A DNA stretch of 35,568 nucleotides from Nitrospirota bacterium (GTDB lineage: Bacteria > Nitrospirota > Thermodesulfovibrionia > UBA6902), in contig DRDE01000083.1 of the NCBI GenBank assembly GCA_011040095.1, forward strand, positions 1-35,568. Direction: 5' to 3'. Below, piece by piece: positions 1,755 to 35,309 of this stretch (its first letter is position 1; each line of letters begins with the position of its first letter). The notes beneath the pieces were generated by a model. It did no database searches, was not told the DNA's origin, and saw only the letters and a program-made list of their open reading frames with translations. The translations under genes and the position numbers were made by a program.

Positions 1755-2377
1755 CCCTGTTGATTTTCAATAAATTCCAGCGATACACTTCCCTCTCTTA
1801 AGATTTCAGGCGGCGTAACCGTGACATCCACAATTGTCGACGGCCTTCCGCCAGGGGCTTTTCCGGTATCAACAATCATATCTATTTTTTCCCCGAAATA
1901 ACTAATGACTGCATACGGATCCTCAGCAGGCGGTTTCCCGGAGGGATTGGCGCTTGTAGCGGTAACAGGCAATTTCAGCGCCATCGCCAGATCAAGGGCA
2001 GCGCTTTTGCCGGGAATTCTAACCGCAACTTTGCCTGTGCCCCCGGTCAGCAGCGCGGGAATGTTTTCCCGCGCTTCGAATATCAGTGTTAATGGTCCGG
2101 GCCAGAACCTTTTCATCAAATCTTTTGCCCTGGGAGGAATTTCAGCTGCAATTGATTCAAGGGTATCCATATCACCGACAATTAAGGGCAAAGGTTTCTC
2201 TGCCGGTCTTTTTTTCAGTTCATAAAGTCTTTTAACTGCTTTTTCATCCGTAGCCAGCGCGCCTAATGCATAAGAACTTTCCGTAGAATAGGCTATAATC
2301 CCCCTGTTTTCAAGTATCGTTAATGATTCAGATATTGTTTTCTCAGCAGTTCTTTTTGTTAACGTCATAATCAGCAT
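1724..2377 (-). CDS. L-threonylcarbamoyladenylate synthase, Sua5/YciO/YrdC (TsaC) family
   Basis: YSTESSYALGALATDEKAVKRLYELKKRPAEKPLPLIV, PGPLTLIF, VAVRIPG, TATSANPSGKP; convergent 31-nt overlap with PiT. Confidence 0.92.
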   Translation of the reverse strand: MLIMTLTKRTAEKTISESLTILENRGIIAYSTESSYALGALATDEKAVKRLYELKKRPAEKPLPLIVGDMDTLESIAAEIPPRAKDLMKRFWPGPLTLIFEARENIPALLTGGTGKVAVRIPGKSAALDLAMALKLPVTATSANPSGKPPAEDPYAVISYFGEKIDMIVDTGKAPGGRPSTIVDVTVTPPEILREGSVSLEFIENQQGYFIPINDSK

Positions 2378-2501
2378 TTCCGATATTTTATCAGAATAGG
2401 CCTGTTAAATTAAAATATCATATCCGCTCGAAAATGATTTTCGTTTGACAGAAATCAAGCGAAGATTGTAGAGTGGATTAAACTACAGGAGGGGAAAGAT
2501 C

Positions 2502-3104
2502 ATGTCAAAAGAAAAGGAAAGTGAACTTGATTTTGAAGGCCTGCTCAATGAGTCTGTAAAAATACACGGCCATCTCTGTCCCGGACAGGTGCTTGGCGTC
2601 AGGCTGAGCATGCTCGGATTAAAACTTACGGGGATAACCGATCCCAAAGGCAAAGACAGAAAAAAACTGGTTGTTTATGTGGAAATAGACCGATGCGCTA
2701 CGGATGCAATCCAGTCCGTTTCAGGCTGCAGCCTTGGTAAAAGGTCATTAAAGTTCCTTGATTTCGGAAAGATGGCTGCTGCTTTTGTGAACCTTGAAAC
2801 AGGAGAGGCAGTCAGGATACTTGCAAAAGAGGAATCCAGAGATAAGGCGAAGAATTATATCCCTGATATTGAAGATAAATATAAATGCCAGCTTGAAGCC
2901 TATAAGATAATGCCTGACGATGAACTCTTTGAATGGAAAGAAGTAAAGATTTCGATTCCGGAGGAAGATATGCCCGGAAGACCGACCCGGAGAATCAAAT
3001 GCGAAAAATGCGGAGAATTTGTCCAGGACAACAGGGATGTCGGTATAGAAGGCAAGCTTTTGTGCAAGGCATGCGCAGAGGGGGCATATTATGAATTCCT
3101 GTAG
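2502..3104 (+). CDS. FmdE family protein (formylmethanofuran dehydrogenase subunit E-like) with C-terminal zinc ribbon
   Basis: KIHGHLCPGQVLGVR, DRCATDAIQSVSGCSLGKRSLKFLDFGKMAAAF; C-terminal CEKCGE...CKAC. Confidence 0.9.
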   Translation: MSKEKESELDFEGLLNESVKIHGHLCPGQVLGVRLSMLGLKLTGITDPKGKDRKKLVVYVEIDRCATDAIQSVSGCSLGKRSLKFLDFGKMAAAFVNLETGEAVRILAKEESRDKAKNYIPDIEDKYKCQLEAYKIMPDDELFEWKEVKISIPEEDMPGRPTRRIKCEKCGEFVQDNRDVGIEGKLLCKACAEGAYYEFL

Positions 3105-3126
3105 TGGCAATTCATGAATTGCCACT
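3103..3126. repeat. 24-nt perfect palindrome AGTGGCAATTCATGAATTGCCACT overlapping the fmdE-like stop codon
   Basis: Arms AGTGGCAATTCA / TGAATTGCCACT read directly. Confidence 0.9.
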
Positions 3127-3159
3127 GCATATTAATTTTTTTGTAATAGGGTCCGCGAA

Positions 3160-3491
3160 AAAACAACTTAACAATGTTAAGTAGAACTGTCACAAAAGAA
3201 TGATCGCAAATTTGTTGCCTTTAAAACAATGAGAAGCAAAAACGTCTTTATGCAGGATTAGAATCCGTAAAGACAGGCTATGGCGAAGACCAAATAATTT
3301 CGAAATTGTTAGGAATAGATTGCCACACCGTTGCAAAGGGGCGTAAAGAAATCATGGATTTTGATTTGGAAATTAAACGTATTCGTAGAAAAGGGGGCGC
3401 TGGATACCCGACTACAGATTTCGGGTATGACAAAAATAAAAAACAGGTAATAGTTCAGCTCCCTTTTCCTTTGCATTACCCACAAGACTGA
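3160..3491 (+). pseudogene. Decayed transposase remnant (ISAzo13-like)
   Basis: Readable ...SVKTGYGEDQIISKLLGIDCHTVAKGRKEIMDFDLEIKRIRRKGGA then divergent sequence; resembles the ISAzo13-type TVAKGR(K/R)EL...RIRR.GGGRK region; no intact ORF. Confidence 0.55.
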
Positions 3492-3611
3492 ACAGAACCT
3501 TCCCCCTTGGCTCTACTTTGTTTCCTCCAACTATACAATGTAATTGACAACAGGCGCTATTCTTGGATAGTATGTTCATAAATAATAAACCCTAAAACCG
3601 GTGAGGTTCCG

Positions 3612-4676
3612 ATGTTTTCAGATATATTGCAGAGGTCTTTTTTACAGAACAGTGTTCTGGATTATCTTATTTTTCTTGCAACATTCATTATCGGTATTTT
3701 TATTATTAAAATTCTCAAAGGCATCAGCCTGCACCGTCTGAAGGCCTGGTCAAAGAAAACGGCCACTACAATAGATGATTTTTTAATTCACATAATCGAA
3801 AAAAATTTAATCCCCCTCCTTTACTTCGGGGTCTTGTATTTCTCTGTTAAAAGCTTAAGGTTGGCTCCTTCTTTAAGCAAGACTATTGATGTTTCCGTAG
3901 CCATAATCCTGACTTTTTTCAGCGTGCGCTTTCTGGCGGCGCTGATTGATTACTCGCTTGAGATATACTGGACAAAGAAAGAGGTCGATGTAAACAGACA
4001 GCGAAGTTTGAAAGGAATTTTAAGAATAATAAAATTCCTTGTCTGGGCTATCGGCGTTACTTTCCTGCTGGACAACCTTGGTTTTAAAATATCCACCGTC
4101 ATAGCCGGGTTGGGGATCGGCGGTATAGCGGTCGCCCTGGCAGCGCAGACAATTTTAGGGGATCTCTTCAGCTACTTCACGATATTTTTTGACCGCCCCT
4201 TTGAGATAGGTGATTTTATCATAGTCGAGGATTTCCTTGGGACTATTGAACATATCGGTATTAAGACGACAAGGGTTCGCAGTCTGAGCGGTGAACAATT
4301 AGTATTTTCCAATACGGATTTAACTAATTCGCGCATAAAAAACTACAAGAGGATGGATAAACGCCGCGTGGTCTTCCGGCTCGGGGTCGTTTACCAAACC
4401 ACCCTTAAGCAGTTAAAGGAAATACCCGGGATAATCAAAGACACCATAAATAACGTCAGCAATACAGCCTTCGACCGCGCCCATTTTTTTTCATACGGTG
4501 ATTTCAGCCTTATCTTCGAGGTCGTTTATTATGTCCAGAGCAGGGACTATAATATATATATGGACATCCAGCAGGAGATCAATTTTACGATCAAGGAAGA
4601 ATTTGAAAAACGGGGAATTGAATTCGCCTATCCGACACAGACAGTGTTCCTGGAAAAAGCACAGGGGAACAGTTAG
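3612..4676 (+). CDS. Mechanosensitive ion channel, MscS family
   Basis: IAGLGIGGIAVALAAQTILGDLFSYFTIFFDRPFEIGDFI...GTIEHIGIKTTRVRSLSGEQLVFSN. Confidence 0.93.
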   Translation: MFSDILQRSFLQNSVLDYLIFLATFIIGIFIIKILKGISLHRLKAWSKKTATTIDDFLIHIIEKNLIPLLYFGVLYFSVKSLRLAPSLSKTIDVSVAIILTFFSVRFLAALIDYSLEIYWTKKEVDVNRQRSLKGILRIIKFLVWAIGVTFLLDNLGFKISTVIAGLGIGGIAVALAAQTILGDLFSYFTIFFDRPFEIGDFIIVEDFLGTIEHIGIKTTRVRSLSGEQLVFSNTDLTNSRIKNYKRMDKRRVVFRLGVVYQTTLKQLKEIPGIIKDTINNVSNTAFDRAHFFSYGDFSLIFEVVYYVQSRDYNIYMDIQQEINFTIKEEFEKRGIEFAYPTQTVFLEKAQGNS

Positions 4677-4679
4677 AAG

Positions 4680-5060
4680 GTGAAATACGGAGAAAAGAAA
4701 ATTTCAAAGGCCGGGCTTGAAAAATGGCCCAATCCCTATCAGGACAGGGATTATACCATTGATATAAGCTTCCCTGAGTTTACCTGTTTATGCCCGAATT
4801 CAGGCTATCCCGATTTTGCAATGATTAAGATCAATTATATTCCCGACAAATATATTGTAGAACTTAAATCGTTGAAACTTTACCTGAACAGTTTCAGGGA
4901 CCGGGGCATATCCCACGAGTCCGCAACAAACCGGATATTTGATGATCTTAAAAAGCTCCTTAAAGCAAGACACCTTGAGGTGATCGGGGACTTTAATCCG
5001 AGGGGAAATGTCAAAACAGTTGTCCGGGTTTCAACGCAGGAGAACGAGTCGGAAGACTGA
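4680..5060 (+). CDS. queF: preQ1 synthase (NADPH-dependent 7-cyano-7-deazaguanine reductase), GTG start
   Basis: [49 protein letters not shown]. Confidence 0.95.
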
Positions 5061-22645: not shown

Positions 22646-22664
22646 TTCTGTAATTCTATAATAA

Positions 22665-22807
22665 GAGGCTCTTGCAAAAGTCTTTATTCGTCATTCCCGA
22701 GGTCTTTATCAGGAATCCAGTATTTTTTAAAATCAAAGACTTCTGGATACCCGCTTTCGCGGGTATGACAACAACAGCGATTCTCTCGATACTTTTGCAA
22801 GAGGCTC
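22665..22807. mobile_element. MITE-like non-autonomous element, ~143 bp
   Basis: Near-perfect 17-bp terminal inverted repeats gaggctcttgcaaaagt / acttttgcaagaggctc (1 mismatch); inner inverted GTCATTCCCG..GGAATCCAG vs CTGGATACCCGCTTTCGCGGGTATGAC. Confidence 0.75.
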
Positions 22808-23006
22808 ATAATTCTAACCTTATTGTCTCGATATTAAATGAAGTGTAAAAGTTTGATTTAATTACTATCCTCATAAACTGTATTTGCATGTGTTTGGGCT
22901 TTTACTTCTTGCTGTTTAGAGGGATTTAGATTAAAATTAAACGATCGATTTTAAAGGGGAAACGGGCATCACGTTTTCAAATTACAAATCAAGACCCACT
23001 TAATGA

Positions 23007-23432
23007 ATGTATAAGACAACAAACATATTCAAGCTTCACGCTGATATCCTCTCAGACTATAAGCAATTCGTCGGCAGTTTCATTAACATTAGTGATGAAC
23101 AAATTAAGAAGATTGTAGAAGAAGAGATACGCACGGGACGATTCTGGCCGGACCCTCTTATACAATTCAATCCATCTTTTGAAATCCTTGGCCCTGCAAA
23201 TGAATTTTCTGGTGACGGGAAGCTTCTCCATCCGGATACAGCGCATATTTTTAAGGACTATCACCTGTTCAAACATCAGGTGGAAGCTATTGATCTTGGG
23301 AATCAATATCGTGATTTTATAGTTACTTCCGGCACAGGCTCGGGCAAATCGCTTACATATTTAGGAACTATATTCAACTATTTACTTAAGAGCAAACAGG
23401 GCAAGGGAATGATGGGGAGAAGCTGCTCATGA
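23007..23432 (+). pseudogene. N-terminal fragment of a large DEAD/DEAH-type helicase (ends just after Walker A)
   Basis: HQVEAIDLGNQYRDFIVTSGTGSGKSLTYLGTIFNYLLKSKQGKG then abrupt MMGRSCS*; no downstream helicase motifs. Confidence 0.65.
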
Positions 23433-26400
23433 CATCATCCGGCCTTGGAACATCCGGCATCCGGGACAACCACCATCGGGGATCAATTGGCAATTTTCTC
23501 AAAGAGAAGATTCTCCAAGACTCAGATCTCTCATTCGTCTCCGCTTATTTCACCATTTATGCCTATGCCGCCCTCAAGGACCAGCTTGACCAGGTTAATC
23601 ATCTCCGGTTCCTGTTCGGAGAACCACAATTCATCCAATCACTTGACCCTGACAAAACAGAGAAAAAGGCCTTCAGGATTGAGAACGACGCTCTTGCGCT
23701 TGAGAACAAGCTGCAACAGAAACGCGTGGCGAGAGAATGCGCTGACTGGCTGAAAGCGAAAGCAGAAATCAGATCGATTATCAAACCGGGCTTCCTTCAC
23801 GGCAAGATGTACCACATGGACAACAATGGCGTTCAAGAAGCCATTGTCGGAAGCTCGAACTTTACGGTGCGCGGCCTTGGTCTGGGCGCTTCGGGCAACA
23901 ACATCGAGCTTAATCTGGAAGTTGATAGCGCCAGAGATCGAAAAGACCTGAAAAATTGGTTCGACGAGGTTTGGAACGACACGGACCTCGTTGAAGACGT
24001 CAAGTCTGAAGTCCTGAACTACCTTTCTCTGTTATATCAGAATCATTCACCGGAGTTCGTTTACTTCAAGACGCTCTTTCACGTATTTGAAGATTACTTG
24101 TCGGAGGCAGAACGTGGTGGCCTCCTCAACGAGAAGACCGGCTTCTTTGAATCCGACGTGTGGGACATGCTCTATGAATTCCAGAAGGACGGCGTAAAGG
24201 GCGCGATCAATAAGATCCTGAAGCATCATGGCTGCATCATCGCAGACAGTGTCGGCCTGGGGAAAACATTCGAAGCGTTGGCAATCATCAAGTATTTTGA
24301 ACTTCTCAACGGTCGCGTGCTCGTCCTCTGCCCCAAAAAGCTGGAGGATAACTGGAAGGTCTACCGCGAAAACGACACACGCAACCCGCTCCTCAGGGAT
24401 CGGTTTGCTTTCACTGTGCTGGCTCATACCGATTTGGGGCGGGATGCCTATGAAACTCACAATTGGGGCAATTATGATCTCGTGGTTATTGATGAGTCTC
24501 ACAACTTTCGCAATAACGCCGGGGGTAAGGTTCAGGAAGACGGCACTCGCAAGACTACGCGTTACGAGTTTCTGATGGAACGGGTTCTTCAGACGGGCGT
24601 GGATACCAGGGTGCTGCTGCTCTCAGCAACCCCGGTGAACAATAGCCTCAAGGATTTACGAAACCAGTTCCTGCTGATCACACAAAATCAGGACATGGCC
24701 TTCCACGAGTCGCTTGGCATCTACAGCATCGCTCAGGCGATGAAGAATGCGCAGACCCACTTTACGCAGTGGGCGGACCCGAAAAAGAACCCGGAACGTA
24801 AGGTCAGCCGTCTACTCGACGTCCTGGATTCCACATTCTTCAAGTTGCTTGACGAACTCACAATAGCACGGTCCCGTCGACATATCATCAGCTACTACGG
24901 GACTAAGGATATGGGCGAATTCCCCAAAAGGCTTAAACCAATAGCCCTGCACCCGGCTACGGATATCAAGGGATACTTTCCGTCCTACGATGAATTGCAT
25001 GCGGCTATCTCGGAATATAAGCTGAGTATTTTTAATCCGACCGCCTATCTGGAAGACGCCCATGTGAACCGCTATATCAAGGACAGCGAGCAGTTGGTCA
25101 TTTTCAACGACCAGAAAAAACGCGAGTCCTATTTGATTGGCATGATGCGCGTGAACTACCTGAAGCGGCTCGAAAGCTCTGTGCACAGCTTCGAGGTCTC
25201 GATCGACCGAACGATCAAAAAAATCGAGGATCTGTTGACGAAGATCGACCACTTCGAAGGCAACTTCGATGAGTACACGAGTCCTGATATGTTCAAGGAC
25301 CAAGGAGAGGAAGAGGAGGCTGAGCTGCTGGAAAGGCTGATGGTAGGCAAGAAGCTCTCGATCCGGTTGGAGCACATGAAACGCGGGGAATGGAAAAAGG
25401 ACCTCAAGAAGGACCGCACACAGTTAATTGCCATCCACGAGAAGGCTGCGGCCGTCACTGCGGACCGCGACGCCAAGCTTCAGGAGTTGAAACGTCTGAT
25501 CCAGAACAAGATCAACCGCCCACTTAACAATGACAATCGGAAGGCGCTGGTTTTTACCGCCTTTTCCGACACTGCACAATACCTCTATGCAAACCTGAAG
25601 GACTGGGTGTCTGAGGAGATGGGCTTGCACTGCGCGCTGGTTACCGGCACTGGCGACAACCGTACCACCTTCAAGCAGGCTGGCTATGTCCGCCAGACCG
25701 ATTTCATCTCCATTCTGACCAACTTCTCGCCCCGCTCCAAGCTCCGTGAGAAGATGCCGAACATGCCGCAGGAGGGCGAGATCGACATCCTTATCGCTAC
25801 GGACTGCATTTCAGAGGGACAGAACCTGCAGGACTGCGATTATCTCATTAACTATGACATCCACTGGAACCCGGTGCGGATCATCCAGCGCTTCGGCCGA
25901 ATAGACCGCCTGGGCAGCATTAATAAGCAGATTCAGCTCGTCAACTTCTGGCCCACTGATGATCTGAATAAGTACATCAATCTCAAGGACCGCGTCGAAG
26001 CGCGTATGGCGATGGTGGACCTTGCTGCCAGCGGCGCGGACAACCTTCTCGATCCCGATCAACTCGAAGCCCTGGTAGCTGAAGAACTGACCTATCGTGA
26101 GAAGCAGCTTATCCGGCTCAGAGACGAGGTGATCGATCTGGAGGAGATGGACGACAACGTATCGCTCAGTGAATTTACGCTCGACGATTTCCGGGTTGAA
26201 CTCATGAATTTCCTGGCCAACAACCGCAAACAACTGGAGGAAGCCCCGTTGGGCCTCTATGCCGTGACACCGACGCTTGACGGAATGAAGGGCGCTGAGC
26301 TGTTTGACAAGAACTGGCACGAGATCGTGAAACCCGGTGTGATCTTCTGCTTGCGGCACAAGCACCCGCCGCAGGAGAAACGGTCCTCCAACATTAATCC

Positions 26401-26746
26401 CCTGGGGCGGTATTACCTGCTCTATATCCGCGATGACGGCACCGTCCGTTTCACCTTCACCCAGGCAAAAAACGCCCTCTCCATGTTCCGGAAGCTCAGC
26501 GTTGGAAAGGCCGAGTCCTATCAGGCGCTTTGCGACCTGTTTGACCAGGAGACGGAAAGCGGCGCGAAGATGGACAAGTACAGCGATTTGCTGATTAAGG
26601 CGATCAACGCTATCGTACGCACCTTCCAGAAACGGACCGCGGCCGGATTGCAGTCCGGCCGGGATTTTGTTATCCCTGACAAGAAGGAGCAGGCAAACAA
26701 GTCCTCTGATTTTGAACTGATAACCTGGCTGGTAATCAAGGAATAA
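23429..26746 (+). CDS. PLD (HKD)-domain SNF2-type helicase/nuclease
   Basis: HGKMYHMDNNGVQEAIVGSSNFT (HKD); GCIIADSVGLGKTFEALA (Walker A), VVIDESHNF (motif II), LLLSATPVNN (III), QRFGRIDRLGS (VI). Confidence 0.93.
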   Translation: MTSSGLGTSGIRDNHHRGSIGNFLKEKILQDSDLSFVSAYFTIYAYAALKDQLDQVNHLRFLFGEPQFIQSLDPDKTEKKAFRIENDALALENKLQQKRVARECADWLKAKAEIRSIIKPGFLHGKMYHMDNNGVQEAIVGSSNFTVRGLGLGASGNNIELNLEVDSARDRKDLKNWFDEVWNDTDLVEDVKSEVLNYLSLLYQNHSPEFVYFKTLFHVFEDYLSEAERGGLLNEKTGFFESDVWDMLYEFQKDGVKGAINKILKHHGCIIADSVGLGKTFEALAIIKYFELLNGRVLVLCPKKLEDNWKVYRENDTRNPLLRDRFAFTVLAHTDLGRDAYETHNWGNYDLVVIDESHNFRNNAGGKVQEDGTRKTTRYEFLMERVLQTGVDTRVLLLSATPVNNSLKDLRNQFLLITQNQDMAFHESLGIYSIAQAMKNAQTHFTQWADPKKNPERKVSRLLDVLDSTFFKLLDELTIARSRRHIISYYGTKDMGEFPKRLKPIALHPATDIKGYFPSYDELHAAISEYKLSIFNPTAYLEDAHVNRYIKDSEQLVIFNDQKKRESYLIGMMRVNYLKRLESSVHSFEVSIDRTIKKIEDLLTKIDHFEGNFDEYTSPDMFKDQGEEEEAELLERLMVGKKLSIRLEHMKRGEWKKDLKKDRTQLIAIHEKAAAVTADRDAKLQELKRLIQNKINRPLNNDNRKALVFTAFSDTAQYLYANLKDWVSEEMGLHCALVTGTGDNRTTFKQAGYVRQTDFISILTNFSPRSKLREKMPNMPQEGEIDILIATDCISEGQNLQDCDYLINYDIHWNPVRIIQRFGRIDRLGSINKQIQLVNFWPTDDLNKYINLKDRVEARMAMVDLAASGADNLLDPDQLEALVAEELTYREKQLIRLRDEVIDLEEMDDNVSLSEFTLDDFRVELMNFLANNRKQLEEAPLGLYAVTPTLDGMKGAELFDKNWHEIVKPGVIFCLRHKHPPQEKRSSNINPLGRYYLLYIRDDGTVRFTFTQAKNALSMFRKLSVGKAESYQALCDLFDQETESGAKMDKYSDLLIKAINAIVRTFQKRTAAGLQSGRDFVIPDKKEQANKSSDFELITWLVIKE

Positions 26747-26758
26747 AGCAGGAAAAAA

Positions 26759-29700
26759 ATGGAATTGAAAACGCAGATACAACAACGCCTTCAGGCCTTC
26801 TCTCAAGGCAATTTGCGCGACAACGCGCTCGCGCTTCTGAACACCCTCGGTTACGTAAGCGAGAAGACCCTCGACATCTCTTCTTTAGCCAAGCTGCAAG
26901 AGTACCTTGATCGTCACAAGTATCTAACGGAAGAGAATGCGCTTCTTTCCAGATGGATGGATGTTCAATTTCTGTTTCAGCTAACAAGTGCCGAGATCTC
27001 AGGTCGCACGACAGGCCAGCTCGAGCTGATAGAAAATACGGCATATGACGCCAAGGAAGTGAAGTCATACCTGTTCTTTGCGATAGAAATCTCTGGCGAA
27101 AAACCTACCCGAACCGAGCTGTCACTTATCACCAGATCACTCAATCGGCTTGTGCCAATGCCTGTGTTTCTGCTCTTCAAACATGATGATTCCCTTTCTC
27201 TGGCTATTATCAACCGTCGCCGCAATTTGCGTGACGGCACTCGTGATGTGTTGACTCGGGTATCTTTGATTCGCGATATTTCTCTTGAGAATCCCCATCG
27301 TGCGCATCTCGATATCCTTGGGCGCTTCTCGTTGCAGTCGCTCAGTACAGAGGTTGGCGCCATACGGACGTTCTCAGACCTGGATAATGCCTGGCAGAAA
27401 ATACTCTCAACCCAGGAGTTGAATCGGCGCTTCTATGCTGATTTGGTGGACTGGTTTACATGGGCTGTATCAGAGATTCGCTTGGCACATTTGCCTGATC
27501 ATGTGGCCGACACCAGCGAAGCAAGAGAAAAGTCCACGCACGAGTTTGTCATGCGCCTGATTTGCAGACTTCTCTTTACGTGGTTTCTGAAAGAGAAACA
27601 ACTGATTCAGGGAGAGTTGCTGGAGTTCTTTGATGCTGCTGACCGTCGGCATCTGCCGGTGCGGGATGCTGCTGATCCCGAAGTTCTTGAAAAGAACAGC
27701 TACTACCGTGGCATTCTTCAAAACATATTTTTCAAGGCCCTGAACAAACCGATGGAACAACGGCGCCGAACAACTGCTGAAGCCCGCAACGATCGGACAG
27801 TTGACGATCCGGAACTCAAGAAGCTGGACTACCTTGGCAAAAACTATCTGGAGGCTGACTTTGACTATGACTTGTTTGACCGTATTCCGTACCTCAATGG
27901 TGGGCTCTTTGACGCGCTACCCGAAGACAACGCATCGGATACCATTGATGATGGAGCTATCCGAATCCCAAACAAACTCTTCGCTGCCACGCTTGAGGAC
28001 GGATTCTCCATCGAGATCGGCACGGGACGGAGAACGCAACGGAGGCCGATTGAAGGTCTGAACCGCATATTCAGTCGGTATCGCTTTACGGTTACTGAGA
28101 ACACGGCACTGGAAGAAGATGTTGCTCTCGACCCCGAACTGCTCGGCTTGGTCTTTGAAAACCTGCTCGCGGAAATCAACACTACGGATAAAGCCGCTGC
28201 CAAAAGCGCACGCAAAGCATCGGGCTCCTACTATACGCCGCGTCGAATCGTGGACTACATGGTAAACGAATCTCTGCATCTTTACCTTCGCTCAAGATTC
28301 GAGCGAGAAGCGGCCACTCGTCAGGATCTGCAACTTGTCAGCCAGCTTTGTTACCGTGAGGAAGGCGCTGACTTTGCGTCTATCGCTGATCGTATTGTAG
28401 AGGCTCTTGATGAGGTCCGTGTACTTGATCCGGCATGCGGCTCAGGAGCATTTCCCATGGGTATGCTCCATCGCATGGTGGAATTGTTGAGAGTTGTAGA
28501 CCCCGGCAATGAAGGTTGGAAACAACGTTTGCTAGCCCGCCTCCCTGTGGATGTGCGTGCTGATGCCGAATGCGGCATGGCAGGCAAGAGCTACGACTAC
28601 CTTCGTAAACTCGGCCTGATCCAGAAGAATCTCTACGGTGTTGACATTCAGCCCTTGGCCGCCCTTATTGCCAAATTGCGTTTTTTCTTGACTCTGGTCA
28701 TAGAACAGGAAGTTGACCCGAATGACCGTCTTCACAACTATCATCTTCACGCTTTGCCCAATATCGAAACAAACCTGCTGTGCTGCAACACCCTCAAAGA
28801 GGCCCAGATAGGGTTATTTGAAGAACAGGCCATTCAGGCATACATCCAGGCTCGGGAAGATTATTACAATCCTGAGCTCTCAGCAGAAGAACGCGAACAA
28901 TTGTGCATCAGTATTGCTGAGATACTGAACGGGTTGTTTCCGTTATTCTCACAAGAAGCGCTTGGCATTACCCCACCGCAAGATCGCGCCACCGCGCAAG
29001 AGCAGAATATCGCCAATCTGCAGCGCTGGTTCCGCGATGCAACCATTCCTGCGCCATTCTTCAGCGCCCGCGCTTTCTTTCCTGAAATTGGAGATGCCGG
29101 ATTCCATATAGTAATCGGCAATCCGCCATACGGCGGTGATAAAATTCCAGATGATATCAAGAACGCGCTCGGACTCGGATGGAAAGATCCTTACGGTGCA
29201 TTCATAGCTCGATTCCTGAACGATGAATCCGAGGGTCGCCCGCCAACGCCGCTTGCACCTGACGGTGTGCTTGTCTACATCGTCAGTGATACTTTCATGA
29301 CCATCAAATCGCACCGTCCTCTGAGAAAACAGATGATGCAGCACCGTATCCACAAGATGCTTCGTGTCCACCCGGATACGTTCCATGCGACCGTAAACAC
29401 AGCCATTATCCTGTGCCAGCGTGGAGCGGTGATAAAAGGTCATACCTGCCAGATGGCTGACCTTACAAACGTTTCCATCCATGACCAGTTTGAACGTTTT
29501 CTACACCTTCTGTATCAAACCGAAGGTTTTGCCAGACGTCAGAATATCAGCAACCAGACCTACGCGATCTATCACTACCGCCAGTCTTTGATTGAAACTA
29601 ACTCTAACCTGCCGTTCTTTGTTGCGTCACCGAAGCTGTTTGTGTTGATGCAGGATATCGATAATTCCACGGTACTCAACGAGTCAGGCCTGCCGAAGGT

Positions 29701-31342
29701 ATCTTATGAGTGTTCATTGAATGACAGGGCTTTTCATTTGTTTAAGCTAGGTGATCAGTATCATGGCTCCGGTAGGTCACGCCGATGGAACAATGAAGGA
29801 CTGTTTCAGGTTGTATCGGGAATAAAAACGGGTTCTAATGTTTCTTACCTGCGAATCACAAGTCTGAATGCCCAGAAAAACTTTCCAGAAGTGTCATCTG
29901 ACGTTGTTCTTACCAAGGCTGAGATTGATGCGCTATCGGAATCCAAAAAAAGACAAGGTGTCGTGGGTGATAAGCACTACGTTCCTTTTGAAATGGGGCA
30001 GCCGTCAGATGCTTCAGGTGGCCTATTGCCGTGTTACTACCAGAAACCATCGCTCATAGTCATTGATTGGTCTCGAGAGTCAGTGGCAAGCATGCGTGTC
30101 GAACCTCACTCTGATCTCGCAAACGAGGAGTATCGATTTAGAAGCTTGGATGAGCAGATATCGTTTAGTTTTGCAGGTCAATACTGTCCAACGTTTCGCA
30201 AGGCAAACGCTCCTGTTTTCTTGAACGCTGCATCAAGAATCATGCTGAGAAGTGGGGATAGCGCAGTAGAGTGGCTGGGCTTCTTCAATTCTAAATTCCT
30301 CCGCTATATAACTCGCACATCGATCAACCATACGGTCAATTTTGGGGTTGATGACATCAAGGAGGTCCCAACTCTTGTTGCGTGGCAAGATCTTGGACCC
30401 TTAGTAGAACGTATTCTGAGTAACCAGGAATCCAATGATTCTTACGACTACGTATCAAACGAGCAAATCGAAATCGACCGTCTCGTATATGAAGCCTACG
30501 GCTTGAATGAAGACGACATTCAGGAAGTGGAAAACTGGTATGCACGGCGTTATCCGAAGCTGGCCAAAGCCCAGCGACGTGCTTTGGCAGCCAAAGAGGG
30601 CAAGACAGAAGAAGAACTTGTGGAGCGTACGACATTCCATCTTTATTGTGATGAGTCGCGGCACTTGCCCTATGATGGTGAACCATGCTTCCTGCTTGGC
30701 CTGCTGAGTTGTCCGGCAGAGAAAGTGAAAGCCGCACATACTGAACTGTCTGATCTCTGGAAAGCACATAGTCTGCCGCCTCATTTCGAATCTAAGTGGA
30801 CCAAGGTCAGCCCTGGCAAACTGGACTTCTACAAGGCACTGGTTGACTGGTTCTTCAATGCCGAGGGTGTCTCGTTCCGAACATTGATCCTGCCGGACAA
30901 ACAGCGTCTTTATGCGGCGTTGCCGGATGAGAGCCGGGACTATCTTTACTATCGCTTGTATTATCAGCTACTGCGGGGGGCTATCGAGCCGGAAAACCGG
31001 TATCGGGTCTTTATGGACCTCAAAGACACACGCGGTCGGGAGAAGCGGATACAGCTTGAACAGCTTTTGCATCAGGACGCCGACGATAATGATGGAAAGA
31101 TTGTGGAAAATCTTCAACATGTTCAAAGTCACCATATCCGTTTGCTCCAGGTGTGTGATCTGTTGCTCGGGGCGACCGGATTTGCCCGGCGTGAACAACA
31201 AGCGAATGAGAGCACGGCCAAGCGCGCCTTGGTATCCGTAATCGAAGAAAAACTCGGCCAGTCGCTGAGTATAGATACCCCGCCTGGGACAGAGAAAATT
31301 AATTTGCTTACGTGGCATGACCGGGAAGCGTTACTGCTATGA
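26759..31342 (+). CDS. Eco57I-class N6-type DNA methyltransferase fused to a C-terminal DUF3800-like domain
   Basis: SGSYYTPRRIVDYMVN, VLDPACGSGAFPMGML (motif I), FHIVIGNPPYGG (motif IV); residues ~1290-1527: FHLYCDESRHLPYDGEPCFLLGLL, FESKWTKVSPGKLDFYKALVDWF, YRVFMDLKDTRGREKR, IRLLQVCDLLLGATGFARRE. One uninterrupted ORF. Confidence 0.9.
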   Translation: MELKTQIQQRLQAFSQGNLRDNALALLNTLGYVSEKTLDISSLAKLQEYLDRHKYLTEENALLSRWMDVQFLFQLTSAEISGRTTGQLELIENTAYDAKEVKSYLFFAIEISGEKPTRTELSLITRSLNRLVPMPVFLLFKHDDSLSLAIINRRRNLRDGTRDVLTRVSLIRDISLENPHRAHLDILGRFSLQSLSTEVGAIRTFSDLDNAWQKILSTQELNRRFYADLVDWFTWAVSEIRLAHLPDHVADTSEAREKSTHEFVMRLICRLLFTWFLKEKQLIQGELLEFFDAADRRHLPVRDAADPEVLEKNSYYRGILQNIFFKALNKPMEQRRRTTAEARNDRTVDDPELKKLDYLGKNYLEADFDYDLFDRIPYLNGGLFDALPEDNASDTIDDGAIRIPNKLFAATLEDGFSIEIGTGRRTQRRPIEGLNRIFSRYRFTVTENTALEEDVALDPELLGLVFENLLAEINTTDKAAAKSARKASGSYYTPRRIVDYMVNESLHLYLRSRFEREAATRQDLQLVSQLCYREEGADFASIADRIVEALDEVRVLDPACGSGAFPMGMLHRMVELLRVVDPGNEGWKQRLLARLPVDVRADAECGMAGKSYDYLRKLGLIQKNLYGVDIQPLAALIAKLRFFLTLVIEQEVDPNDRLHNYHLHALPNIETNLLCCNTLKEAQIGLFEEQAIQAYIQAREDYYNPELSAEEREQLCISIAEILNGLFPLFSQEALGITPPQDRATAQEQNIANLQRWFRDATIPAPFFSARAFFPEIGDAGFHIVIGNPPYGGDKIPDDIKNALGLGWKDPYGAFIARFLNDESEGRPPTPLAPDGVLVYIVSDTFMTIKSHRPLRKQMMQHRIHKMLRVHPDTFHATVNTAIILCQRGAVIKGHTCQMADLTNVSIHDQFERFLHLLYQTEGFARRQNISNQTYAIYHYRQSLIETNSNLPFFVASPKLFVLMQDIDNSTVLNESGLPKVSYECSLNDRAFHLFKLGDQYHGSGRSRRWNNEGLFQVVSGIKTGSNVSYLRITSLNAQKNFPEVSSDVVLTKAEIDALSESKKRQGVVGDKHYVPFEMGQPSDASGGLLPCYYQKPSLIVIDWSRESVASMRVEPHSDLANEEYRFRSLDEQISFSFAGQYCPTFRKANAPVFLNAASRIMLRSGDSAVEWLGFFNSKFLRYITRTSINHTVNFGVDDIKEVPTLVAWQDLGPLVERILSNQESNDSYDYVSNEQIEIDRLVYEAYGLNEDDIQEVENWYARRYPKLAKAQRRALAAKEGKTEEELVERTTFHLYCDESRHLPYDGEPCFLLGLLSCPAEKVKAAHTELSDLWKAHSLPPHFESKWTKVSPGKLDFYKALVDWFFNAEGVSFRTLILPDKQRLYAALPDESRDYLYYRLYYQLLRGAIEPENRYRVFMDLKDTRGREKRIQLEQLLHQDADDNDGKIVENLQHVQSHHIRLLQVCDLLLGATGFARREQQANESTAKRALVSVIEEKLGQSLSIDTPPGTEKINLLTWHDREALLL

Positions 31343-31842
31343 CGACACCAACAACTGTAGCTTGGCTACCCGAAAAGCTTGCAGAGGCCGATTTTGACGA
31401 TCTCAATGCTCTTGAGGCAGCGGCATATGCTATATTTCAAAATGATTGGACAGATTTCCCGTCATTCCGTGGTGAAGACGTCCGTGTCCATCGTCGCCCT
31501 CACATAGCTAACGGCGACCGATGGAATACGTACTGGCACGCTGTATCCGAAGGCTCTCCAGAACATTTACGGACGTCTCCGATTCCTGAGAGGCTTGTGC
31601 GTGTTCCGTGGTGCAGACCGATGGTGGAAAACGAAAGCGATGCGGTGGTCAAGGTGTGGGCAAACGTCCGCGGACGTGATCAGCATATCTGCATATGGTT
31701 TGATCGCATCAATTACATTGTTATCCTGAAGCAGTGCCGAAACCATGTCTTGTTGAAGACAGCGTATTGCCCGAAATCGAGGAGAAAGCAACAACTGCAC
31801 AGGGAATATGCAGCCTGGAAAAAAACGGGCCGCGCTCTGTGA
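31339..31842 (+). CDS. Small protein of the helicase/MTase operon; C-terminus possibly BECR-fold RNase-toxin-like
   Basis: ATGA overlap with upstream stop; QHICIWFDRINYIVILKQCRNHVLLKTAYCPKSRRKQQLHREYAAWKK. Confidence 0.6.
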   Translation: MTTPTTVAWLPEKLAEADFDDLNALEAAAYAIFQNDWTDFPSFRGEDVRVHRRPHIANGDRWNTYWHAVSEGSPEHLRTSPIPERLVRVPWCRPMVENESDAVVKVWANVRGRDQHICIWFDRINYIVILKQCRNHVLLKTAYCPKSRRKQQLHREYAAWKKTGRAL

Positions 31843-31853
31843 AGAACGCGGCC
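31828..31853 (+). other. Hairpin overlapping the stop codon of the 31339-31842 gene
   Basis: GGCCGCG ctctgtgaagaa CGCGGCC; no U tract. Confidence 0.5.
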
Positions 31854-31936
31854 TAATGCACCTTCCACACATGGTGGATGTGACACTCTTATTATCGGCG
31901 AATTCGCCATGAATTGCAAGAGTAAATTTGAAAATA

Positions 31937-32371
31937 ATGAAAACAAATGGAAAACGCTTTTGGTTGGTAAAATTCGCCCCATTCCGTACTTCATGGAGCG
32001 AGATTGTGCGGCGCGGGACCTTTACTCTGCGTGGGGTACGCAGTCCGTCAGCACGGAATAACCTGAAAGATATGTTATTGCACGATCCTGTACTGTTCTA
32101 TCACAGTCAACAGGAACGTGCCATTGTCGGACTAATGGAGGTTTATAGAAAAGCCTATTCTGATCCTGCCAGCGCTGACCCTCAATGGTTAACCTGTGAT
32201 TTCGCGCCAATACGCAGTCTCGCACGCCCTGTGTCGCTTGCCGAGATAAAGGCAGACTTTCGACTTGCTGGAATAGGACTTGTGCGCCAACCCCGACTTG
32301 CTGTAATGCCGCTGACGGCCCAGGAATTTGATATCATCGCCAACGAAATGGCGAACAAATCAATGGAATAA
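31937..32371 (+). CDS. EVE-domain protein (PUA-like modified-base reader)
   Basis: RFWLVKFAPFRTSWSEIVRRGTFTLRGVRSPSARNNLKDMLLHDPVLFYHSQQERAIVGLMEVYRKAYSDP...VSLAEIKADFRLAGIGLVRQPRLAVMPLT. Supplied ORF starts at 31928; ATG 31937 also possible. Confidence 0.92.
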   Translation: MKTNGKRFWLVKFAPFRTSWSEIVRRGTFTLRGVRSPSARNNLKDMLLHDPVLFYHSQQERAIVGLMEVYRKAYSDPASADPQWLTCDFAPIRSLARPVSLAEIKADFRLAGIGLVRQPRLAVMPLTAQEFDIIANEMANKSME

Positions 32372-32373
32372 GA

Positions 32374-32532
32374 ATGAGCCTCTCAGAACTCAGGCTATGG
32401 AACTTCAGGGAGTACGGCAAAGGGAAAGCAGTTCAGGCGACGCTGTTCTATATAGGACATGATTATTTCGGTGGCCTACCGGGTATTGCCACCCGCTTTC
32501 GAATTTTGGCCACTCAGCGCTTGAAAGAGTGA
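32374..32532 (+). pseudogene. Truncated N-terminus of an AAA/OLD-like ATPase
   Basis: MSLSELRLWNFREYGKGKA... typical start of OLD/RecF-like ATPases, then frame degenerates and stops before Walker A. Confidence 0.5.
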
Positions 32533-32641
32533 GTGGTGTCAGGTCTATGAGTGGTGTCAGGTCTACACATTTTACATGCTTTGTGTAATGTGTAGACCTG
32601 ACACCGCGGATAGACCTGACACCGCGGATGACACCGCGGAT
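32531..32641. repeat. Composite inverted/tandem 18-bp repeat cluster
   Basis: GAGTGGTGTCAGGTCTAY x2 (32531-32566); perfect 19-bp inverted arms 32553-32571 / 32587-32605; AGACCTGACACCGCGGAT x2 plus a partial copy (32594-32641). Confidence 0.9.
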
Positions 32642-33056
32642 TGAAAAGGTATCAAAACAACCAACCACTATCTGTGAAAAAGGGTATCAAGACATCCTCA
32701 AGCTCCGTGAACTTCATGTCGAGATGGACAATGCTGTCCTTTCCGCCTACGGCTGGACAGACCTCAACCTTGCCCATGACTTCTACGAGGTGGACTACCT
32801 CCCCGAAAACGACCGTATCCGTTACACCATTAGCCCGGAAGTCCGCAAGGAAGTATTAAAACGCCTCCTCAAACTCAACCACGAAATCCACGAGCAGGAA
32901 GTCAAAGCAGGGCTGTGGGATAAAAAGAAGGGAAAGGGAAAAAAGGAAATCACAGGAGTCAAAGAGAAAGCCGCCTCTTACAAGCCTGGATCAGAAGAAA
33001 TAGAAAAGATACAGATCGGTCTTTGGAGCGCTGATACTCCCGTTGAAGGCACTTAA
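32628..33056 (+). pseudogene. C-terminal fragment of an Eco57I-type restriction-modification methylase
   Basis: ILKLRELHVEMDNAVLSAYGWTDLNLAHDFYEVDYLPENDRIRYTISPEVRKEVLKRLLKLNHEIHEQEVKAGL; no catalytic motifs; ATG lies inside the repeat cluster. Confidence 0.7.
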
Positions 33057-33315
33057 GGTAATGTTATTGACTACATTGACTTTCTCTTTTAGGATTGTTT
33101 GATGTTTTTCTTGCAATTTTTTAATAAAGAGAAGTAGACTTTGTTAATCTGATTGAGGGTAATGATACTTTTAACAGAAGTCGATGTAATATAGTAGACA
33201 CTTCCTGTAATGATAATGGTATATCATGGGTATTGCCTTTGTAACTAAAAGGACATCAAACCTGGTCTTTATTTCTTGTGGAATGTGCATAAAAAATACT
33301 TATCCGGTTTTCAGG

Positions 33316-33376
33316 ATAACGTATAGAGTTTTATCCATAGTGCCGCAGGCATTATGGATAAAACTCTATACGTTAT
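33316..33376 (+). other. 61-nt near-perfect hairpin (29-bp stem, 3-nt loop)
   Basis: ATAACGTATAGAGTTTTATCCATAGTGCC-gca-GGCATTATGGATAAAACTCTATACGTTAT; the single non-Watson-Crick position is G.U. Confidence 0.95.
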
Positions 33377-33425
33377 ACAAATTGATCCGCTTCACAACAC
33401 AACAGAGTGAATCTGAGGTAACCAC

Positions 33426-35309
33426 ATGAAAATTGTTTTTGTTGAAATCCAGAATTTCCGCAGGCTTAAATCCTGTCGGGTTGAAATCGCTTCACAGGAA
33501 ACGATTCTTGTCGGGGCAAATAATAGCGGTAAGACTTCTGCGATGGATGCGATGATTCTGTTTCTCAAAAAAAGCCGCCGTAAAGATATTGCAACCACAG
33601 ATTTTACATTGTCGAATTGGTCGCATATCAATCAAATAGGTACGCAATGGACAAATGCTGACGGCGATAATAAGCCTGATCTAGTGCTTGGACAATGGTT
33701 GTCGTATTTGCCATCTATCGACGTCTGGCTCGAGGCCAATGATACGGATATCCACCATATCATCCATCTCCTCCCAACACTTGACTGGAAACCGGATCAA
33801 AAACTTGGCGTGCGGCTGGTATTTGCCCCAAAGGACATTGAAAAACTGTACAAAGAATTTCGCGATGCCTATCAATCAGCTCGTGGTACCGAACCAACTG
33901 CTTTCCGCGAAGATAAACGCATACTATCCTTATGGCCGGAATCGCTGCGGGATTATCTGGACAGAGAGCTTCACCGGCATTTTAAAGTCAAAGCGTATAT
34001 TTTAGACCCAACGCAATGTTCTGATCCTTACAATGGTGTGGCTAAACCCCAGCCGCTTCCTGCCGACAGTGAGCCGATGGACAGAGAGCCATTTGACGGC
34101 CTCTTCAAGATTGATGTTATTAGTGCCCAGCGAGGCTTCTCTGATCCGAAAACTGAAGATGATTCACACAGCGGCTTTGCAAGTTTATCCACACAGCTTC
34201 GTCAGTATTTCTCCAAGCATTTAGACCCGTCAGAATCTCCTGATGCCAGTGATATTGAGGCACTACAGGCAATTGAAGCAGCCAAAACGGTATTTGACGA
34301 AAAGTTAAAGAGCAGCTTTGCGCCAGCAATTGGCGAGCTTGAAGGACTCAACTACCCAGGCTTTAGTGATCCACAGATTTCCCTTACAAGCAAGATTAAC
34401 CCTATTGATAGCTTGGATCATAAAACAGCAGTCCAGTTTAATGTGCTACCTGAAGATACCAATTCTATGCACCTGTCTCTTCCCGAAAAATACAACGGAT
34501 TAGGGTATCAGAATCTTATATCTATGGTGTTTAGCCTGATCAGGTTCAGAGATGAATGGATGCGTGTCGGCAAGGCGGCAAAAAGACAAAACAATGATGA
34601 AACCATCATCGAACCGCTTCACATTGTGCTTATTGAAGAGCCGGAAGCTCATCTGCACGCTCAAGTTCAACAGGTATTCATCAAAAAAGCTTATCAAGTA
34701 CTGCGTACCAACGATAGGCTCAAGAATGGCCAACTCAATACACAACTGATTGTCAGCACTCATTCGTCTCATATTGCTCATGAGTTGGACTTTACTTGTT
34801 TACGATACTTCCGACGTGAACCTGCAAGGAAAAAAGGAGAAATACCTTTGGCAACCGTTGTGAATTTATCGAAAACCTTTGGCGATGCTACAGAAACATC
34901 CAAATTCGCTACACGATACGTCGAGTCAACCCATTGCGATTTGTTCTTTGCCGATGCGGCCATTCTGGTTGAAGGCTCGGCGGAACGAATGCTTCTCCCA
35001 CATTTCATACGGCATAAATTCCAAAAGCTGGATCAAAGCTATATCTCCCTGCTTGAAATTGGCGGCAGCCATGCGCACCGCCTGAGGCCACTTATTGAAA
35101 CACTTGGACTTCTCTCGCTTGTGATCACAGATTTGGATTCGATTGGCAAATCTGACATTGCAAAGGTATTTCCTGAACGGAACAAGAATTATCGAACCGG
35201 CAACACGACACTTAAAGAATGGGTTCCGGGTAAAGAGTCACTGGATGAATTATTAGGCTTACCTGATAACGAGAAACAATCTGAAAATGAGTTGGTTAGT
35301 GTTGTATAG
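33426..35309 (+). CDS. OLD-family / GajA-like ATP-dependent endonuclease (AAA + TOPRIM), possibly C-terminally truncated
   Basis: ILVGANNSGKTSAMDAM (Walker A), HIVLIEEPEAHLHAQVQQVF (Walker B), LIVSTHSSHIAHEL; TOPRIM AILVEGSAERMLLP...LVITDLDSIG. Confidence 0.88.
   Translation: MKIVFVEIQNFRRLKSCRVEIASQETILVGANNSGKTSAMDAMILFLKKSRRKDIATTDFTLSNWSHINQIGTQWTNADGDNKPDLVLGQWLSYLPSIDVWLEANDTDIHHIIHLLPTLDWKPDQKLGVRLVFAPKDIEKLYKEFRDAYQSARGTEPTAFREDKRILSLWPESLRDYLDRELHRHFKVKAYILDPTQCSDPYNGVAKPQPLPADSEPMDREPFDGLFKIDVISAQRGFSDPKTEDDSHSGFASLSTQLRQYFSKHLDPSESPDASDIEALQAIEAAKTVFDEKLKSSFAPAIGELEGLNYPGFSDPQISLTSKINPIDSLDHKTAVQFNVLPEDTNSMHLSLPEKYNGLGYQNLISMVFSLIRFRDEWMRVGKAAKRQNNDETIIEPLHIVLIEEPEAHLHAQVQQVFIKKAYQVLRTNDRLKNGQLNTQLIVSTHSSHIAHELDFTCLRYFRREPARKKGEIPLATVVNLSKTFGDATETSKFATRYVESTHCDLFFADAAILVEGSAERMLLPHFIRHKFQKLDQSYISLLEIGGSHAHRLRPLIETLGLLSLVITDLDSIGKSDIAKVFPERNKNYRTGNTTLKEWVPGKESLDELLGLPDNEKQSENELVSVV

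Follow-up and report, generated by a model that had tools for sequence, protein, structure and literature searches.

A hairpin upstream of a GajA-like gene in a Nitrospirota bacterium is very probably a solo, palindromised IS91-family ori end

Introduction

The insertion sequences IS91, IS801 and IS1294, and the ISCR elements, share an HUH (Y2) transposase with a zinc-binding domain. A hairpin lies just inside the 3′ end, known as ori (oriIS), and the tip of this end abuts a fixed tetranucleotide target. The ter end is distinct. For IS1294, a preference for GTTC and CTTG targets has been reported, together with the absence of both terminal inverted repeats and direct repeats (PMC6052338). Solo right-end fragments also occur. 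For IS801, experiments have produced solo right-end miniatures by one-ended transposition, with the transposase acting in trans (PMC3189936). The miniatures (229, 360 and 679 nt) carry the right (ori) end without an intact transposase. They keep this end in its normal form and finish in a ter-like tetranucleotide.

Here, we describe a hairpin in 35,568 nt of DNA from a Nitrospirota bacterium (contig DRDE01000083.1 of assembly GCA_011040095.1). We refer to this whole stretch as the window. We conclude, with a probability of roughly 90%, that this hairpin derives from an IS91-family rolling-circle insertion sequence, as a solo, palindromised copy of its 3′ (ori) end. Unlike IS91, IS801, IS1294 and ISCR, the window copy has no transposase, and its tip is mirrored on both sides to give a near-perfect palindromic ori end. 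Like the IS801 miniatures, which are mobilised in trans, it is a right end without an intact transposase, and it may perhaps be mobile in the same way. Unlike them, it is 51 bp long and symmetric.

Results

The hairpin is strong and far outweighs its small neighbour

An earlier note on this sequence had described a 61-nt hairpin. An inverted-repeat search recovered it at the same place, with 29-nt arms at 33316-33344 and 33348-33376 that are 97% complementary across a 3-nt gap. Folding of positions 33290-33400 gave -46.7 kcal/mol, compared to a mean of -14.9 for shuffled sequences, and none of 200 shuffles folded as well. The longest exact arm in the window, for loops of 3-20 nt, is 24 nt. Five Markov shuffles gave 8-11 nt. 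The relevant features are as follows.

33316..33376, no strand assigned: whole inverted repeat with 29-nt arms, a 3-nt loop and one G.U pair (inverted-repeat search; fold z -9.8)
33300..33319, plus strand: small 6-bp hairpin, TTATCC/GGATAA, far weaker (-6.0 versus -42.8 kcal/mol) and probably incidental
33426..35309, plus strand: GajA/OLD-like ATPase-TOPRIM gene, a neighbour only (PF13175, 7e-55; PF20469, 3e-18; PADLOC GajA, 1e-250)

The lone G.U pair joins G at 33340 to T at 33352. The small upstream hairpin exists, as the earlier note had it, but it is weaker by ~37 kcal/mol. Hence, it cannot compete at equilibrium, and the mutually exclusive structures that the note envisaged are unconvincing as a switch.

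The hairpin arm matches the ori tip of an IS91-family element

At its 3′ (ori) end, an IS91-family rolling-circle transposon encoding a Y2/HUH transposase and a tyrosine recombinase has a tip identical to the hairpin arm GGATAAAACTCTATAC. A complete element is present in a genome of the same genus (G001, contig C102; L116, about 2115-4697). Here, the tyrosine recombinase gene is followed by the IS91 transposase gene and a 3′ region ending ...GGATAAAACTCTATAC. The transposase matches PF04986 (Y2_Tnp, 1e-58) and PF14319 (Zn_Tnp_IS91, 2e-30). Both families were matched by all three parent-element transposases scanned (E-values 2e-30 to 1e-58), and the motifs HFHLHC and YLGRY can be read in the translation. 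In the window's own genome (G000), contig C39 carries a transposase gene 96% identical to that of G001 over 1284 nt. At seven further loci, spanning several phyla (L027, L036, L051, L064, L065, L080 and L093), IS91-type transposase genes of ~390-430 codons stop ~300-500 nt upstream of the motif.

The two ends of the parent element appear distinct. The ter (left) end starts GTTGAACTAAACCGC and is conserved in L116, L117, L124, L051 and L065, with unrelated flanks. The normal ori end is an imperfect hairpin plus a 7-nt single-stranded tip (NCTATAC), and the element stops at a GTTA-type target. We collected 21 distinct normal ends, some through a search with GTTA as a requirement and some through one without it; in this set, the four bases past the tip were GTTA (17 ends), GTTG (2), GTTT (1) or CTTG (1). 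The target is mostly GTTA, as opposed to the GTTC/CTTG reported for IS1294. Judged from its sequence, the parent is an ordinary member of the IS91 family. A Y2/HUH transposase with a zinc-binding N-terminal domain is present, as is an ori end with a subterminal hairpin and an abutting tetranucleotide target. On Sinorhizobium and Bradyrhizobium plasmids, genes annotated 'IS91 family transposase' also lie beside tyrosine recombinases. Those elements have the same gene pair and a similar 3′ architecture (TTTAGYCCAAC-NN-hairpin-tip) but a different stem sequence.

Outward POUT promoters have been reported for ISCR1 (PMC6218425), and the normal IS91 3′ ends found here are similar. At L006:1990-2125, L007:1690-1824 and L116:4590-4700, a sigma-70-like promoter (TTTACA-17-TATATT) ~50 nt before the hairpin points outward into the next gene. 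It is missing from the window palindrome. We rejected a reading of the palindrome as a mobile promoter or leader RNA because this promoter belongs to the IS 3′ region.

Related tips are dispersed across genomes and phyla

Similar sequences occur in 13 of the 299 genomes searched (the own genome and relatives). In the own genome (354 contigs, 79% complete), the search for other copies that the earlier note had suggested yielded two, at C208:2078-2125 and C161:1777-1824. Both are non-palindromic, having the hairpin and right arm without the left outer arm, and read GTTCAAC-AT-GTTTTATCC...GGATAAAAC-TCTATAC-GTTA. They terminate solo 3′ stretches of 345 and 158 nt, respectively, which are comparable to the end of the complete element in G001. 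The exact right arm, GGATAAAACNCTATACGTTA, was found in 54 contigs. The metagenome-assembled genomes (MAGs) concerned are labelled as Nitrospirae, Deltaproteobacteria/Desulfobacterales, Acidobacteria, Planctomycetota, Omnitrophota, Deferribacteres and Gemmatimonadetes. The viral contigs searched gave no exact match to the tip motif. When copies are aligned, the left side is lineage-specific and the right side diverges immediately past CGTTA. Such instant divergence is the signature of a mobile-element end. The earlier note had listed a mobile palindromic repeat among its suggestions, and this was essentially correct, as homologous tips are scattered among genomes and phyla as parts of IS91-family elements.

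Two other sites in the own genome, C335:1840-1911 and C270:2466-2541, are degraded IS91 3′ ends. They keep ...TTCGTTCAACATGTT, or nearly so, and have lost the hairpin tip. A tandem duplication of the final ~26 nt of the IS tip (GGACAACGGATAAAACGCTATACGTT) is present at L067:115-175, as if one ori end had been added onto another.

Normal copies show GTTCAAC, an imperfect hairpin and then GTTAGGC, with a new gene beginning right after. This arrangement made an integron attC recombination site, or an attC-derived scar, an attractive candidate. The motif nevertheless sits at the 3′ end of IS91-type elements. Around the integron-type integrases (IntI) that we examined in these genomes, it was absent to a distance of 1.5 kb, which also speaks against a cassette array beside intI. 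The spacers are asymmetric (2 versus 7 nt), the base after the motif is often T or C and, unlike in attC, the hairpin and tip sequence is conserved across phyla. Since IS91 transposases lie directly upstream and linkage to intI was not seen, we ruled this candidate out and regard an attC origin as extremely unlikely.

The window copy has a mirrored tip

The functional core of the window hairpin, 33321-33371, reads GTATAGA-GTTTTATCC-loop-GGATAAAAC-TCTATAC and is flanked by TAAC and GTTA. It is identical to an IS end in genome G022 at 45 of 48 nt and to the complete same-genus element (L116:4654-4700) at 42 of 47. The loop orientation of normal copies (AATGCC..GGCACT) is found on the minus strand of the window palindrome. 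The parts are listed below.

33321..33371, minus strand: 51-bp palindromised ori end of an IS91-family element (alignment to IS ends)
33328..33364, minus strand: inner hairpin GTTTTATCC-loop-GGATAAAAC, inherited from the IS end, asymmetry kept (A.C on minus, G.U on plus)
33321..33327, read on the minus strand: 7-nt IS tip TCTATAC, probably the original (from loop orientation)
33365..33371, read on the plus strand: 7-nt IS tip TCTATAC, probably the mirrored copy
33317..33320, minus strand: GTTA target-type tetranucleotide abutting the tip (compare the normal tips above)
33372..33375, plus strand: GTTA target-type tetranucleotide abutting the tip (flank comparison)

Where the palindrome has the mirrored tip, normal copies have only 2 unrelated nt between TTCAAC and GTTTTATCC. 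The G.U pair of the window is the complement-strand view of an A.C mismatch common in normal IS ends. Hence, a single G.U pair is indeed present, as the earlier note observed, but it is an inherited asymmetry, not recent decay. The window loop differs at ~5 positions from the IS ends now in the own genome. This indicates that the direct parent of the palindrome is absent from the assembly. Neither a transposase ORF beside the palindrome nor a ter motif in its flanks was found. Hence, the palindrome is a derivative and not an insertion sequence.

Being short and intergenic, the palindrome could be of REP/BIME or DDE-MITE type and unconnected to IS91. We find this scarcely credible. The match of its arm and loop to the IS91 end extends over 42-47 nt and includes inherited mismatches, and the own genome has few copies. 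There is no direct target-site duplication of the sort sought for a DDE-type MITE; the flanks, TAAC and GTTA, are inverted and not direct.

Two further repeats were seen in the window. The first, at 32535-32623, is a 42-nt inverted repeat of GGTGTCAGGTCTA units that also occurs at L006:2567-2657 in the same genome and, in part, near an IS end in L007. It looks like another dispersed, REP-like palindromic repeat. The second is a repeat of ~160 bp at 22654-22812. It shares 81% identity with G001 C79 (L121:14063-14221) and includes the inverted repeat TAAGAGGCTCTTGCAAAAGT.

Regulation of the GajA-like gene is improbable

The palindrome lies 50 bp before the start of the GajA-like gene. So placed, a strong hairpin might act on that gene as an attenuator, a protein-binding leader or a structured RNA. 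We consider this improbable. The earlier note correctly stated that the hairpin has no U tract; none was found after the stem, and a terminator-like site is absent. Rfam returned nothing above gathering score and, below threshold, only eukaryotic miRNA and snoRNA models. Furthermore, the sequence is a transposon end found beside many unrelated genes. Conservation upstream of homologous ATPases was not borne out in a comparison of limited power: the tip motif was not found upstream of the three best GajA homologues in relatives, the closest of which (55% identity, G194) is near a contig end with almost no upstream sequence. The attenuator and non-coding RNA proposals are unsupported on these grounds and on the energetics of the supposed competing hairpin. 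A protein-binding palindrome is unsupported in the gene-specific sense. It may hold in another, since the ori tip is presumably the site bound and cleaved by the transposase. Most likely, the 50-bp spacing is incidental and the palindrome is not a regulator of GajA. If the gene is affected at all, this would be a by-product of a strong hairpin or cruciform and not conserved regulation.

The GajA-like gene is the last in a run of defence-type genes (23007-35309). The others encode a PLD-SNF2 helicase, an Eco57I/DUF3800 fusion, a PDC-M04B-like protein, an EVE domain and a DrmD/DrmMI-like fragment (142 aa). The 141-aa DEAD ORF at 23007 looks like a gene fragment. At 627 aa, the GajA-like ORF is about 110-130 residues shorter than the best PADLOC GajA profiles. 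No GajB-sized ORF follows it up to the contig end (33426-35568).

Six loci carry the palindromic version

Six loci have the palindromised form: the window, G007 C62 (L118), G007 C55 (L119), G028 C146 (L120), G302/G131 (L048) and G301 (L061). The pattern was not seen in 395 genomes of another phylum. The palindromes are 51-59 bp long, lack a transposase and carry a mirror copy of the 7-nt tip on the other arm. Their outer arms, GTATAGN-GTTTTATCC and GGATAAAAC-NCTATAC, pair with zero mismatches at every locus. The base N co-varies (T, T, T, G, A and C across the six), such that A-T, C-G, T-A and G-C pairs are all seen. The inner part always retains mismatches of normal ends. Thus, L118 and L120 have T.C, A.C and T.C in common with the normal end of G001/G000, and L048 has exactly the same centre as the normal ends in its genome. 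Two genera share an identical core (G007 C62 and G028 C146), and a Y2 transposase was not detected in G028.

Five of the palindromes are isolated (the window, both in G007, and those in G028 and G302/G131) and have unrelated surroundings. Their flanks are symmetric about the core: TAWC borders one end, and GWTA or GTTC borders the other. This symmetry fits either copying past the tip or insertion into a symmetric or near-palindromic target.

The sixth locus, in an Acidobacteria MAG, is more complex. At L061:6460-6560, a perfect ter-end palindrome, GTTGAACTAAACCGC-ACA-GCGGTTTAGTTCAAC, abuts the palindromised ori end; together they are perhaps a ter-ori mini-element of ~100 bp. We first took this locus as in-situ conversion by quasi-palindrome correction. 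The adjoining GTTGAACTAAACCGC...GCGGTTTAGTTCAAC palindrome makes that history ambiguous, and the interpretation was dropped.

Discussion

The IS91 origin of the window hairpin is firm. From the comparison of palindromic and normal ends we infer how the palindrome formed and whether it moves. Template switching is known to turn a quasi-palindrome into a palindrome (PMC7202029, PMC3820800), and there, as here, an imperfect inverted repeat gains symmetry as one arm is copied from the other. The difference is that, in our palindromes, mirroring is confined to the unpaired tip and leaves the old stem mismatches in place. Hence, the hairpin had already formed, and nothing but the 7-nt tip outside it was copied. 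A 3′ end at the hairpin base, extended with the 5′ overhang as template, would account for this. A plausible snap-back route would run as follows. A displaced or nicked strand may fold into the IS hairpin. Its 3′ end, at the stem base, would then be extended by copying the 5′ overhang, comprising the tip and a few flanking bases. The product would be retained or inserted. In the window copy, both strands read hairpin-NCTATAC-GTTA. Counting against our explanation, only six palindromic loci were found.

Could the palindrome itself be mobile? The 51-bp unit may be moved in trans by an IS91-type transposase, which would use the ori tip present on each strand and target TAWC|GWTA-like sites. The isolated palindromes in unrelated surroundings, all five with the flanks described above, are consistent with this. 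Similarly, two genera have identical cores at different places, and in one of them a Y2 transposase was not detected; this leaves room for mobility. Against this, copy number is low (at most two per genome), and independent formation beside IS copies accounts for the data equally well. The inner part of the G302 palindrome, matching the normal ends of its own genome, suggests local formation. The scarcity of copies and their identity to local IS copies together speak for repeated formation on site. An empty site was not found, and we therefore treat mobility, with insertion of the palindrome as a unit, as a tentative possibility. Somewhat more doubtful still is the stronger proposal of a separate class of minimal rolling-circle mini-elements, made up of palindromised ori ends: 51 bp, generated by hairpin-primed copying, with a functional ori on each strand and moved in trans by IS91-type transposases into near-palindromic TAWC|GWTA sites.

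Explaining a striking hairpin without recourse to regulation removes a false lead on the control of a defence gene. The palindromes also provide a sequence-level trace of the fate of the single-stranded hairpin end of a rolling-circle transposon, whose tip can be copied back on itself to give a symmetric origin. This is a little-noticed route by which transposon tips become perfect palindromes. If palindromised ends are active, the one-strand polarity of IS91-type transposition would be lost and both flanks would be mobilisable.
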